In this document: positions 36,790 through 41,797 of the stretch, piece by piece | Layout of the letters: every line of letters begins with the position of its first letter | How positions within the stretch are numbered: position 1 is the stretch's first letter | NCBI RefSeq assembly: GCF_030758975.1 | Contig: NZ_CP132359.1 | Span: forward strand, 1,194,811 to 1,258,810 | DNA length: 64,000 nt | Direction of reading: 5' to 3' | From: Bosea beijingensis | Lineage (GTDB): Bacteria > Pseudomonadota > Alphaproteobacteria > Rhizobiales > Beijerinckiaceae | Notes under the pieces: generated by a model | Databases searched by the model: none | Seen by the model: only the letters and a program-made list of their open reading frames with translations | What the model was told of the DNA's origin: nothing | Position numbers and translations under genes: made by a program

Positions 36790-36865
36790 GCCTACCGGGA
36801 CGCCTGCCCTTCGCTTGACCCTTCGGCCGAATGCGGTCACCGTCCGGGCCGACGGGTGGAGTTGC

Positions 36866-37465
36866 ATGCGGTCACAGTTCAAGGCGATGGCCCGCCGGAT
36901 CAAGGCGGCCGCGAGCGCGATCGATGGTGCCGTGAGGCAGACCCATGCGGCGCGGCTCGCCATCATGGCTGCGAAGCTGCGGCAAACCCTGCCCCTCCTC
37001 GCCATGCTGCTTCTCGCGACGCTGCTGTTCTGCCTGTTCCTGGGCTGGTCCTCGGCGCGCAGCGTCTTCCTCGTGCTCTCGCCGGCCTCTCCGACCGGGA
37101 TCATGGCCGGTATCGCGGCTATCGTGGCGGGGATTGCGGTGCTCGAACTCTGCGCAGCCTTCGCGATCACCATCATGACCGCGGCCCTGCAGCTCGCCTA
37201 CGATACCGGCCGCCATTGCGTCCTGGCCTTGCTGGCGATCGCCAGCGCGCTCGGGCTGGCGTTGATGGTGTCGTACCTGGCTGCAGAGGGAATTCCAGCT
37301 CTTGCGGGGGCGATCCTGCCGACCCTCGGCCTCTGCGGGCTCGTTGTGCTGACGCTTTGGTTCAAGCGTGCCTATCTGCGTCCCGCCTATCCCGGTTTCC
37401 GCGATTTCTGGGCCGATATCGTCGAGGCCCGCCATTTCCTGATGCGAGCCGCCCATGGCGAATGA
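36866..37465 (+). CDS. Polytopic membrane protein, first gene of an unknown cassette
   Basis: 199 residues. Basic, Ala-rich N-terminus (about 40 residues) then four to five transmembrane segments, the last ending near FKRAYLRPAYPGF, and a short cytoplasmic tail. GGTGGAG supports the ATG at 36866. The last 11 bases overlap the next gene. I do not recognise the family. The order with the two genes that follow suggests a membrane complex. Confidence 0.65.
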   Translation: MRSQFKAMARRIKAAASAIDGAVRQTHAARLAIMAAKLRQTLPLLAMLLLATLLFCLFLGWSSARSVFLVLSPASPTGIMAGIAAIVAGIAVLELCAAFAITIMTAALQLAYDTGRHCVLALLAIASALGLALMVSYLAAEGIPALAGAILPTLGLCGLVVLTLWFKRAYLRPAYPGFRDFWADIVEARHFLMRAAHGE

Positions 37466-38924
37466 CGACGGCGCAACCTCGCGGGTCGTGCGTATGACGC
37501 CTGCTCCGACGGCCCATCATCTCGCCGAGTCGGTCAAGGCTGGGCATCACGGCGCGAGCGATGCCGTCGAGAACCAGCCGCCCGCCCATGCGACCATGCT
37601 CTCCCAGACGGAGCAGACCCTGATCGCCCGGGCGCGCGAGCATTTCGCGACGCTGCGGCAGGAGGCGGCGGCGAGCCTCAACGCCATCCAGGCGGAGATC
37701 GTCAGCCGGCGCGAACTGTTCACGCAGCAGCGCTTCGAGGGCCGCGTGCGCGGCGTCGAGGCGACGATGCGCGCGATGCTGAGCAAGCATGGCGGCGAAT
37801 TGGAACAGCGCGTCTACGATGCGCTCCGGGCCAAGCGCGAATACGCCTTCTTCAATTACGAGAACAAGCGCCGGGCCGATCCCAAGCTCGACAAGTGGCA
37901 GTTCATCCTGTTCTTCCTGGTCGTGCCATTGGTGATCGAGAGCCTGCTCAACGGCAACTTCTTCGCCGAAGCCAGCGATTTCGGGCTCGTCGGCGGTGCT
38001 GCCACTGCCGTGATCATCTCGGCGCTCAACGTTGCGCTCGGCTTCTTCATGGGCGTTGGCCCGGCGCGCTACTGCCAGCATGTGAAGAGCTCTCACCTGT
38101 TCTGGGCGCTGCCAGCCTATGCCGGGATGATCGGGCTGATCGTGCTCTTCAATCTCGCGGTCGGGCATTACCGGGAGATGCTGATCGCCAATCCGGACGC
38201 GCGCTCCTTCCAGGTGATGCCGCGCATGATGGAGAACCCCTTCGCGATCTACGACATCAAGTCAGTCGCGCTGGTCATCATCGGCTGCCTCGTCGCCTTC
38301 GTCTCGGCGAGCAAGGGCTATACCGCCTTCGGCACCTATCCCGGCCACGCCACCGCCTATAAGCGCTGGCGCCAGCGCTGGAGTGCGGTCGAGGAGGAAC
38401 GCCGCCGGCTCGACGCCGAATTGCTGCCCGAGCTGGAGGCGATCCGCACCCAGGTCGATGGCTTCCGCGAGGATTGCCGCGACGAGCTCGGCAAGCTGCA
38501 GGGCGTGAAGGCGGCAGCCGAAAAGGCGCGCGATCTCTATCTCTCGCGGCTGGGACAACTGCGCGCCGCCAAGGACGCTGCGATGATGCAGTATCGCGAG
38601 GCCAATCTCCGGGTGCGCACCGATCTTGCCCCGGCCTATTTCACCCAGTCGCTCAATCTCGCCGAGATCGACCAGCCGGCGGAGCTGCCGGAGTATGTCG
38701 CGGCACGCCGCCAGATCGATGATTTCGAGCAGCAGCTTACCAGCATGCCGGCCCTGATCGAAGCCAAGCTCCGGGACCGGCTGGTGCTGCTGCGCGGCAT
38801 CGACCTTGCCGGCGAAATCGAGCAGGTGAAGCTGCGCGCCGCTCAAGCCGGGCGTGAGGCCTTCGAGCAGGACGAAGCGGCGCAGAAGCAGGCGGCCGAG
38901 GATTTCGCCGCAATGAAGCGCTAA
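37455..38924 (+). CDS. Membrane coiled-coil protein, second gene of cassette
   Basis: 489 residues. Predicted layout: disordered start (1-45), helical region 46-130, four transmembrane segments (about 149-165, 178-200, 216-236, 270-286), then a long helical coiled-coil stretch to the C-terminus (about 300-489) rich in Glu, Arg, Gln and Ala. Single Cys in the last membrane helix. No catalytic motif is seen. It could be a scaffold or channel. Confidence 0.65.
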   Translation: MANDDGATSRVVRMTPAPTAHHLAESVKAGHHGASDAVENQPPAHATMLSQTEQTLIARAREHFATLRQEAAASLNAIQAEIVSRRELFTQQRFEGRVRGVEATMRAMLSKHGGELEQRVYDALRAKREYAFFNYENKRRADPKLDKWQFILFFLVVPLVIESLLNGNFFAEASDFGLVGGAATAVIISALNVALGFFMGVGPARYCQHVKSSHLFWALPAYAGMIGLIVLFNLAVGHYREMLIANPDARSFQVMPRMMENPFAIYDIKSVALVIIGCLVAFVSASKGYTAFGTYPGHATAYKRWRQRWSAVEEERRRLDAELLPELEAIRTQVDGFREDCRDELGKLQGVKAAAEKARDLYLSRLGQLRAAKDAAMMQYREANLRVRTDLAPAYFTQSLNLAEIDQPAELPEYVAARRQIDDFEQQLTSMPALIEAKLRDRLVLLRGIDLAGEIEQVKLRAAQAGREAFEQDEAAQKQAAEDFAAMKR

Positions 38925-38934
38925 AGGCTGACGG

Positions 38935-39699
38935 ATGAAGACCGAGAACTGGGCGATCGTCGCCTCCGTGCTCGCCGGACTTGGCCTTGTCGGCTTCTTC
39001 GCGGCGCCTTCCCTGCTGCGCGGCCCGCCGCGCGACCAGGAGACGCTGTGCCCGAAAACCGGACCCGTCGGGCATACTCTCATCCTCGTCGACAAGAGCG
39101 ACCCATGGAGCGAGGTTCAGGCGAAGCGCCTGAAGGCGCTGGTCAAGCAGGTCGGTGACGAATTGCCGACTGACCGGATGCTGTCGATCTACGTGTTCAA
39201 CGACGTATTCGAGCCGGGTTTCCCCTCGCTCGTCTCGCTCTGCAATCCCGGCAAGACAGCGAGCGAACTGATCGGCAATCCGCGGCGCGAATACGTCAAA
39301 TGGGTCGAGAAATTCGGCCGGCCGCTCGACGAGGCGCTGACCGTGCTGACCCAGCCCGGCAAGGGCAACCAGTCGCCGATCGTCGAGGCGATCGGCGATG
39401 TCGCGTCACGCCGCGAGAACCGCGTGCCGACCGGAGACCGCAAGATCCTGCTCGTCTCCGACATGCTGCAGAACTCAAACCAGTTCACGATGTTCGGCAA
39501 TGCGGCCGGCGCACGCGATCCGGAGCGCCTGCGGCGCCTGCTCGGCAAGGTCTGGCAGGATTTGGGCGCTTCAAGCTGGGAGCTGAGCGTGCATCAGGTC
39601 CAGGGCGTGTACGACGCTGCGCGGCTCGAACAGGCAGCGGGGCTCTGGAAGCAGGCCTTTCAGAAGCTGAACATCAGCGTGAACTGGGACAGGCTGTAG
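38935..39699 (+). CDS. Anchored von Willebrand-A-like protein, third gene of cassette
   Basis: 254 residues. N-terminal single membrane helix (about 7-28), then a domain starting LILVDKSDPWS (D53, S55), NQSPIVEAI in the middle, and ILLVSDMLQNS further on: these are the places of the D-x-S, T and D elements of a MIDAS, though the pattern is degenerate. C39 and C103 (in SLCNPGK) could form a disulfide. Faces the periplasm if the helix is an uncleaved anchor. Starts 11 bp after the previous stop. Confidence 0.65.
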   Translation: MKTENWAIVASVLAGLGLVGFFAAPSLLRGPPRDQETLCPKTGPVGHTLILVDKSDPWSEVQAKRLKALVKQVGDELPTDRMLSIYVFNDVFEPGFPSLVSLCNPGKTASELIGNPRREYVKWVEKFGRPLDEALTVLTQPGKGNQSPIVEAIGDVASRRENRVPTGDRKILLVSDMLQNSNQFTMFGNAAGARDPERLRRLLGKVWQDLGASSWELSVHQVQGVYDAARLEQAAGLWKQAFQKLNISVNWDRL

Positions 39700-39873: not shown

Positions 39874-41634
39874 TCAGAGCCGGTAGGCCATCCGCACCCC
39901 GCCCCAATGGCGGCCACGAACGCGCAAGGGCGCGTTGACCTCGCTCAGCAATTCGCTGCGGCCATCCTCGTGTTCATGCCGGCTGAGCTGGATCAGGAAG
40001 GGGCGGATCGAACGCCCGGCGCTCAAGCCCGCACGGCTGTCGACGATCCGTCGATTGCGGGCATGAGCCGCGTTCCAGGCGGCATCGCCGGTGCGCGGCT
40101 GCTGGGACCAGGCGGCATGATGGACCGGCAGATAGCCGTTGCGATCGCTTGGCAGCGCGAAGACCAGACGTTCATCGGAGCCGAGCGCACCGGCAAGAAG
40201 CGGCGGCAGGATGGTTTCGAGTGCCGGCAGACTTGGGCTCAGATATTGCCGTGGGTCGCTCTCGGGAACCGGGACATAGCGAAGGTCGAAGAGATCCTCC
40301 TCGGAGAGCAGTCCGCGATCGATCGCCTCTTCCATCGCGGCGGCGATCGCGCGGGCAAAGTCCTGGGCGCGCTCGATCAGCGGGCGCCAGAAGCGCTCGA
40401 TCTCCTCGATCATGCCCGCCAGCTCGCCGCAGCCGGCGGCGGCATCCCCCGCGAAGGCGAGGTGCAGGCCGTGCTCGCTGGCGCCGGTCATGCGGCAAGG
40501 CAGCGGCGGCAGGCCTTCGATCGTGACCACGCCTGCGCTGCCGAGCGGCAACCGGGCCTGATGCGAACCGGCCAGCAGCGCGCCGCCGCGGCCGAGATCG
40601 ACGAGCCGGCCGGAAATATCGGCACTGCCGAGGGCAAGATGCGCGCTGCGCGCCGTCGGAAAGCGGTCGAAGCGGCGCCGGTCCGCGAAGGCCGAATGAC
40701 GCAGCACGGGCTTGAAGCGCCTGAGCATGTTGCCGACCAGACGGCTGCCCTTCTGGGTGGCCAGGCGAGCGCACTCGTTCTCCGCAACCGTTTCATGCGC
40801 GATGCGGTCGATCTCGCCAGCGCGACGCGCGACGCCCTCGACGAAGAGGGCGGCCTCCCGCGCATTGCGGGAGAGCTCGGCGGTCGAGCTCGCCTGCTCC
40901 TGGGACGCGCGCCCGATCGTCGCCATGATCGGATTGACGTCCCGCACGATCTGCAAGGTGTCGTTGACGATGCCGGTCGAGCCCTGGGCGGCGCGGGTCA
41001 GGCGATCGACGCGCTCGCGGATATGGCCGACCGCGTCGCTGACCTCGACCGCAAGCGACTTCACCTCATGGGCGACGACGCCGAAGCCGCGCCCGGCCTC
41101 GCCGGCACGCGCAGCTTCGATCGCCGCGTTGAGTGCAAGCAGATTGGTCTGGCGCGCGATCTCTGCGATGGAATCGACGATACCCCTGATCTCCCCGGTC
41201 GCGACGGCGAGCCCGTCCAGCATCACCTTCGCCTCGCCGGCGCGCGAGACCGCGGCATCCAGCTTGTCGCGGACATCGACCATGGCACCGTCGACCTGCT
41301 CGGCCGCCTGCGAGACCTGATGGGTCGCGGCAGCAAGCGCGGAGGCGTTCTCGCTGGCGGCGCCGACGGCCATGCGCATGCTGCCGGCATTTTCGAGGAT
41401 GGTGCGCGAACCGCTTTCGGACTCGGCCGAGCGCTGCTCGACCTCGCCCAGCTCCTTGGTCAGTCGCTGCATCGCGAGCAGGATGTCGCGCTCGATGTCG
41501 TTGACCGCGTCATGAGCGGACGCATCGTAAGGCAGGATTGCCACCTGAGAGGCGGCTTCCGCCACCGGCAGCGCTGCGGGGATTTCCTCCACCGCATGTC
41601 GGGCGCCCAGCCAGCGTCGAATCCTGCCCTGCAT
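39874..41634 (-). CDS. Soluble methyl-accepting chemotaxis protein with PilZ and C-terminal sensor region
   Basis: 586 residues, no transmembrane segment. MCP signalling hairpin around residues 60-290 with the highly conserved tip [21 protein letters not shown] near 156. Then RRRFDRFP near 318 and DLGRGG near 349, a PilZ-like c-di-GMP pattern (the usual D/N-x-S-x-x-G has Gly for Ser). The last ~130 residues contain [10 protein letters not shown] and end with [12 protein letters not shown], a sensor region found at the C-terminus of some cytosolic receptors. ATG at 41634; GTG at 41640 possible. Confidence 0.85.
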
Positions 41635-41797
41635 CCCCACCCAGTCTCACCATAGGTCAAGCTCGGGTCCGGTTATCGTCCCGGCCCGTTAACAAAAGCT
41701 TCCATACCGTCGCACGACGCCCTTGCCGGAGACGCATTGGACCCCCGCCGCCGCCGCCTGTATGGCTGGCAGTCATGCGTCAACGGAACAGGCAGCC

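Follow-up and report, generated by a model that had tools for sequence, protein, structure and literature searches.

A membrane gene trio with a VWA-like protein, fixed in Bosea, shares its core with cassettes that carry a putative ion motor

Do three adjacent membrane-protein genes of Bosea beijingensis belong to a system of their own, and if so, of what kind? The genes, here called A, B and C, lie on the same strand downstream of moaA in a 64,000-nucleotide stretch of a complete genome of 5.56 Mb (contig NZ_CP132359.1, positions 1,194,811 to 1,258,810; this whole stretch is called the window below). An earlier note, made from the letters of the window, had taken them for an operon encoding a membrane assembly with a VWA-like protein, perhaps for surveillance, secretion or envelope repair. 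Our comparisons showed that A-B-C is an operon-like set that is chromosomally fixed in Bosea, and identified C, from its sequence, as a VWA protein with a degenerate metal ion-dependent adhesion site (MIDAS). That the three proteins form an inner-membrane complex with B and C as its conserved core, the Bosea form being a motor-independent envelope sensor or tether, is a reading to which we give an even chance.

The conservation of the trio was analyzed across the genus. Of the 61 relatives searched with the profile of C, 25 gave a match, among them 23 of the 37 Bosea genomes. In each of the 22 Bosea loci in which all three genes were visible (the window, L049-L056, L058 and L156-L167), the order was A-B-C; the contig breaks off in L057, the one further locus with C. 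The co-occurrence in conserved order that the earlier note had looked for was thus found in 22 of 22 assessable loci. The variable flanks that it had also anticipated were not: the trio occupies one fixed site in Bosea, between moaA and a gene with methyl-accepting chemotaxis protein (MCP) signalling and PilZ-like domains. These flanks were retained wherever the sequenced stretch reached them, except in L166, where the MCP gene was not found; in most loci the MCP/PilZ gene adjoins the trio, and in three loci extra genes lie between moaA and A. In the divergent Bosea loci, identity was about 62-72% for B and 70-77% for C. Among the 14 Bosea genomes without C, the moaA region was examined in 12. 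In two of these (L178 and L179), moaA and the MCP gene are about 40 bp apart; in one (L170), the interval holds B alone; in six, other genes fill the interval; and in three, the stretch ends short of the MCP gene. The intervening genes, read by eye, were those of oxidoreductases, lipid-synthesis-type membrane proteins, and transport or sensor proteins, not defence genes. The idea that the site is a defence hotspot was therefore rejected, as the fully visible C-less intervals hold ordinary-looking genes, B alone or nothing.

The assignment of C was based on profile comparison. When a 58-row profile of its soluble part was compared, in a single hhalign run, with 19 VWA domains of related genomes, a probability of 92 and an E-value of 6.5e-7 were obtained, and the three MIDAS motifs came into register (D53-x-S; S147-P-I with T-P-I; S-D176-M-L-Q-N with the third motif). 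The control values were 0.1 for reversed VWA, 0.4 for OmpA, 0.3 for ZorA and 0.1 for MotA. The top matches of the C profile in the PDB were also VWA-bearing (ITIH4, E 0.007; collagen VI, E 0.044). The next ones, at about 0.07, were 3-hydroxyacyl-CoA dehydrogenases, which are unrelated and matched over one short stretch; the single sequence of C had no PDB match. In the 58-row alignment D53 and D176 are invariant, and Ser or Thr occurs at position 55 in 58 rows and at position 147 in 57. The MIDAS-like residues are likewise retained in 81-82 of the 82 C proteins of the B-C-D-E loci described below. All residues to which the earlier note had pointed (D53-x-S55, Ser147 in the Thr place, D176, C39/C103) were found at the positions given, and its notion of a VWA fold passed scrutiny, through profile comparison alone. 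The site differs from that of the VWA superfamily in being incomplete: C has D53-x-S55-D56, S147 and D176, but not the full D-x-S-x-S...T...D, the first motif being D-x-[ST]-D in the family and the Thr usually being Ser. C39 and C103 occur together in 49 of the 58 rows and in 81 of the 82 C proteins of the B-C-D-E loci, as counted by alignment (a strict text pattern misses 24 of the 82), and the domain is probably disulfide-closed. In relatives of C, Arg-rich tails precede the hydrophobic N-terminal span; the span, these tails and the Cys pair together suggest that the domain is periplasmic. VWA proteins of the Bat/MoxR-VWA operons are paired with a MoxR ATPase. C differs from these, as no MoxR match was found among the eight window proteins scanned. 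An operon of this type is documented for Borrelia (PMC5700661).

The genes themselves are listed in Table 1. All three open reading frames (ORFs) were confirmed and are conserved across Bosea, so that the three-gene set is real. At an E-value of at most 0.001, 63 database proteins matched B and 85 matched C, a degree of conservation that excludes chance ORFs. The predicted overlap of 11 bp between A and B was correct, whereas the gap between B and C, given earlier as 11 bp, measures 10 bp; the predicted multi-span A, four-span B and single-span C agreed with hydropathy, which gave four, four and one spans. An in-frame TTG at 36815 is a possible alternative start of A. As had been stated, no name could be attached to the proteins: none reached a curated Pfam or NCBIfam cut-off or had a PADLOC match at E <= 1, and the PHROGs matches were only at 0.08-0.1. 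The B profile yielded coiled-coil and other weak matches in the PDB (best E 0.0024). Glu162 and Asn166 of B, in or beside span 1, are each present in 41 of 42 aligned relatives, and its N- and C-terminal helical regions are presumably cytoplasmic. A was detected in one of 385 genomes of the class, namely that of the window, and apparently is a Bosea-restricted membrane protein outside the wider B-C system.

Table 1. Genes of the trio and the adjoining flank, in window coordinates
Feature	Position	Strand	Description and basis
Gene A	36866..37465	+	199 aa, ATG start; four-span membrane protein (ORF, hydropathy)
Gene B	37455..38924	+	489 aa; four spans, putative membrane scaffold (ORF, hydropathy, relatives)
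Gene C	38935..39699	+	254 aa; single span, predicted periplasmic VWA domain (ORF, hhalign)
MCP signalling and PilZ-like domain gene	39874-41640	-	Convergent with C; PilZ E 0.0005, just under cut-off

Relatives of B and C were also found outside of Bosea. A search of plasmids with B returned 24 records (identity 22-26% among the 20 matches listed), and four of these showed a four-gene cassette, B-C-D-E, in which two further genes, D and E, follow the homologues of B and C. The B and C homologues of such cassettes share 20-26% identity with the Bosea proteins. One cassette of this kind is located on pRL11 of Rhizobium johnstonii 3841. C was present in 17 of 385 alphaproteobacterial genomes and in 18 of 398 genomes of the phylum, the window's own genome counted in each. 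The loci from these searches comprised 20 with B-C-D-E (including L064, which reaches a contig edge such that E is not visible), ten that carry C, some of them B as well, but neither a D nor an E that could be recognised, and eight distant loci. The order B-C-D-E was found in all 82 D loci examined, which were the best 80 of 226 confirmed genomic D matches, mainly from Rhizobium and Mesorhizobium, and two contigs of a viral collection. These two contigs (L260 and L261) carry the cassette together with an SNase gene. The trio itself was not found on viruses: patterns of B gave no match in viral contigs, and the D search found the two contigs with the distant cassette. Scans of the loci with the C alignment revealed no conserved stretch. 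No named system in Pfam, NCBIfam or PADLOC corresponded to B, C or B-C-D-E, and no description was found in open-licence PMC papers, a search that does not extend to subscription papers and most preprints.

D and E apparently form an ion-driven motor of the ZorAB/MotAB type. By sequence, E is MotB/ZorB-like. It has one N-terminal span with the motif GLTxAE, in which Glu28 is invariant in all 13 rows aligned; the motif occurs in 81 of 82 E proteins, the exception, L257, being an apparent split frame. The OmpA domain of E scored above the Pfam cut-off in L002, L066, L100 and L102, just or well under it in L004, L061, L062 and L069, and was absent in the Pfam scan of L065, L067 and L068. The E protein of L069 matched the PADLOC model of ZorB2 at 1.7e-33; the NCBIfam ZorB2 cut-off of 400 bits was not reached (84.4 for this protein; the other score was 78.8). 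D is probably ZorA-like, with weaker evidence than for E. The D protein of L069 matched ZorA2 at an E-value of 9.6e-7, and another ZorA2 model over its membrane part at 1.2e-4, while that of L067 matched PF01618 under the cut-off (E 0.01). The hhalign probability of D versus ZorA was 14.6, and this alignment brought the last two spans into register; the MotA/ExbB-family proteins of the window's genome gave 4.0 versus ZorA and 0.2 versus D. Many further ZorA matches of D were confined to the coiled coil, and the D profile yielded mostly coiled-coil matches in the PDB, including ZorA tails. The membrane part of D was not found in the 23 Bosea genomes, five of which had weak matches to the coiled coil only (E 7e-5 to 9e-4, model positions 172-366). 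The 22 Bosea loci have no D beside the trio and no E at the locus, OmpA-type proteins elsewhere in the genome not having been searched for.

Nuclease genes were frequent at the loci with D and E. One SNase profile, applied to the same kind of flanks throughout, matched at 11 of the 20 B-C-D-E loci, eight of which had served as seeds of the profile. It matched at none of the 22 Bosea, ten B-C-only and eight distant loci (other nuclease families were not scanned across all flanks). Pfam support for SNase was also obtained in L062, L066, L069, L098, L099, L101 and L102; the assignment came from a genome-wide PF00565 search in L067, from the record annotation in L001 and L002, and from the custom profile alone in L060. 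In L062, L066, L069 and L102 the SNase is fused to E. In L100 (4394-6196, minus strand) a GmrSD_C nuclease domain (PF07510, E 2.3e-11) takes the place of the SNase in the fusion with E, which suggests that the periplasmic nucleases are exchangeable. With this locus, 12 of the 20 have a nuclease gene or an E-fused nuclease. In the D survey, an SNase gene lay within the examined flank in 33 of 82 loci, either upstream on the same or the opposite strand, or downstream. The 16 motor-form genomes contain 45 SNase matches, and in eight of the 16 (two of them near-identical) such a match lies at most 4 kb from C, versus a hand-calculated expectation of about 0.1. Among the families listed for the 126 flanking genes of the 20 loci, strong matches included AbiEii, Cas10, OLD/Gabija-like ATPases, a type II methyltransferase, resolvases and integrases; this survey had no background control. 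Taken together, B-C-D-E looks like a new phage-defence machine. The surveillance role guessed at in the earlier note fits better with these distant relatives, some of which have a nuclease and defence-type neighbours, than with the Bosea trio.

Could the Bosea trio itself nevertheless be an anti-phage system, in which C would sense the entry of phage or DNA in the periplasm and A and B would respond, for example by disturbing the membrane? The nucleases in or beside the sister cassettes, the defence-type and mobile-element genes in their flanks (the latter to be read with the missing control in mind), and the patchy occurrence of C in the genus would be in accord with such a role. We consider it unlikely, because the trio sits at a fixed site, none of the 22 loci has an SNase, the equivalent interval of other Bosea holds genes that, by eye, do not look like defence genes, and A, B and C have no PADLOC match.

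The motor form was compared with three known systems. Zorya consists of a ZorA-ZorB motor with nuclease effectors. Its soluble effectors are cytoplasmic, and ZorAB recruits ZorE (PMC11890865). In outline the cassette of the relatives, with a motor, a peptidoglycan-binding subunit and a nuclease, is similar: the OmpA domain of E (in L069) matches ZorB2, D has weak matches to ZorA, and there are linked nucleases. It differs in adding B and C, in missing the curated ZorB2 cut-off, and in that its nuclease is predicted to be periplasmic, being fused to E or having a signal-like N-terminus, in contrast to the cytoplasmic effectors of Zorya. The Bosea trio differs further, having neither a motor gene nor an SNase at its 22 loci. 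With the flagellar MotA-MotB stator, one of the 5:2 ion motors (PMC9389320), E of the relatives shares the N-terminal span with an invariant acidic residue, followed in most cases by an OmpA-type domain. However, this residue is Glu in place of Asp, D has no hhalign match to MotA/ExbB, and the pair is absent at the window locus. SNIPE is a single membrane-bound protein with GIY-YIG and DUF4041 domains, a nuclease that cuts the DNA of phages while it is being injected (PMC13190303). It resembles the relatives only in the idea of placing a nuclease at the inner membrane; theirs is an SNase or GmrSD_C domain and comes with a motor and a VWA protein, and the Bosea trio has no such nuclease.

B and C also occur together in other settings, and the pair looks like a portable envelope core. 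The eight distant loci, mostly from outside the Alphaproteobacteria, combine a lipoprotein-like gene with a distant C and, at the position of B, a B-like protein or another gene. Seven of these B-like proteins, a gammaproteobacterial B', matched B with an hhalign probability of 79.8 (reversed control, 2.7). One such set (L107:4034-8066) encodes a glycine-zipper/OmpA lipoprotein, a B-like membrane protein and a C-like VWA protein, and similar sets are present in L105, L106, L108, L109, L111 and L077; in the one lipoprotein scanned, that of L107, the OmpA domain matched PF00691 at 2.1e-20. The assignments of neighbouring genes in L104, L078, L110, L111, L105 and L070 were made by eye. In L078 (4643-9296, minus strand), B and C are followed by a nucleotide-binding-like protein, a four-span protein with the D-like motif GFICTLASL and a one-span protein. 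The last two, which had no PADLOC or Pfam match, are possibly a highly divergent motor pair. In L070 (4461-9486) the B-C pair is convergent with genes that resemble those of a caspase-fold peptidase/sulfatase-modifying-factor fusion and a second such factor, and in L071 and L103, two genomes of one genus, it adjoins an alpha/beta-hydrolase-like gene, with tat-like genes nearby.

How the forms with and without a motor are related was analyzed with a quick, unrooted tree of B plus C. It comprised the 32 loci with both proteins in the alignments; five of ten Bosea loci (of the window, L049-L056 and L058), L066, L074 and L103 were left out. The B-C-D-E loci form one side of a branch with an SH-aLRT (Shimodaira-Hasegawa-like approximate likelihood ratio test) support of 90, the five Bosea rows are separated by another with 99, and the B-C-only loci occupy two places. 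The architecture changes twice over the 32 rows, and none of 200 shuffles gave so low a number. This topology fits one gain of the motor in the other lineage. Because Bosea lies outside the motor clade, a loss of the motor in Bosea is not shown, and the view of the trio as a proven motor-loss form was rejected. A core with neither motor nor nuclease, inherited at one chromosomal site, makes a motor-independent envelope sensor or tether the most likely function of the Bosea form.

It is conceivable that A takes the place of D-E and supplies an ion path, such that A-B-C would be an independent ion-powered membrane machine. Glu94 in span 2 of A is invariant in all ten aligned A proteins, Glu162 of B is near-invariant, and A sits in a variable slot of the operon. 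We regard this as distinctly improbable, as A is not a shortened D (hhalign probability 0.4), its similarity to B (8.6) is a mere hint of paralogy, and it has neither a peptidoglycan-binding domain nor a Pfam match near the cut-off. That the trio is a decaying remnant of a B-C-D-E defence cassette after loss of D, E and the nuclease would explain why the membrane part of D is missing from the 23 Bosea genomes and why 23 of 37 genomes have the trio, but it is very unlikely, since B and C are intact and conserved down to the MIDAS-like residues, and a single gain elsewhere, with Bosea outside the motor clade, fits as well.

In the reading that we favor, a motor-independent sensor or tether, C would be anchored by its N-terminal span with the VWA domain in the periplasm. 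A metal bound at its MIDAS-like site would mediate the binding of a ligand, which may be a partner protein or a component of the cell wall. B would be a four-span scaffold with both termini in the cytoplasm, relaying the state of C via the Glu/Asn pair of span 1 to the cytoplasmic helices, and A would be a Bosea-specific partner that, with its invariant membrane Glu, replaces the motor drive or modulates B. We infer topology, metal binding, complex formation and function from the sequences. Several points weigh against this account. The interaction of B with C is deduced from the pairing of the genes. One Bosea genome without C (G011) carries a divergent B (L170:6644-8092, minus strand; 46% identity) at the site with neither A nor C, so that B may work alone. 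Two Pfam VWA models matched the C family weakly (VWA_3 in two of 58 proteins, best E 0.011), the C of the window had no Pfam VWA match at all, and the curated cut-offs were not reached. Lastly, the quick tree has several long branches, which may have been joined artificially.

In the other alphaproteobacteria, B-C with the D-E motor and, often, an exported nuclease has the look of an envelope defence machine, in which the motor, with the nuclease attached on its periplasmic side, may drive the B-C core or be gated by it. Tentatively, and at less than an even chance, we propose that B-C forms the centre of a class of envelope machines, so far unreported, with interchangeable drives, in which a periplasmic nuclease rides on a ZorAB-like axle with a VWA clutch or sensor, and of which Bosea has the motor-less sensor form. 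In the mobile form, an ion-driven ZorAB-like rotor would carry the nuclease (an SNase or GmrSD_C domain fused to E) on the periplasmic end of a peptidoglycan-bound axle. The VWA protein would act as a metal-dependent clutch or sensor, and incoming DNA would be cut before or while crossing the inner membrane. Should B-C-D-E prove to be a defence system, it would extend Zorya-type motor immunity to the periplasm, its nuclease being attached where the motor faces the cell wall, and would reveal to what a rotating defence motor can be linked. The role of the VWA and scaffold parts by themselves could be studied in the Bosea trio, a natural control that lacks the motor.

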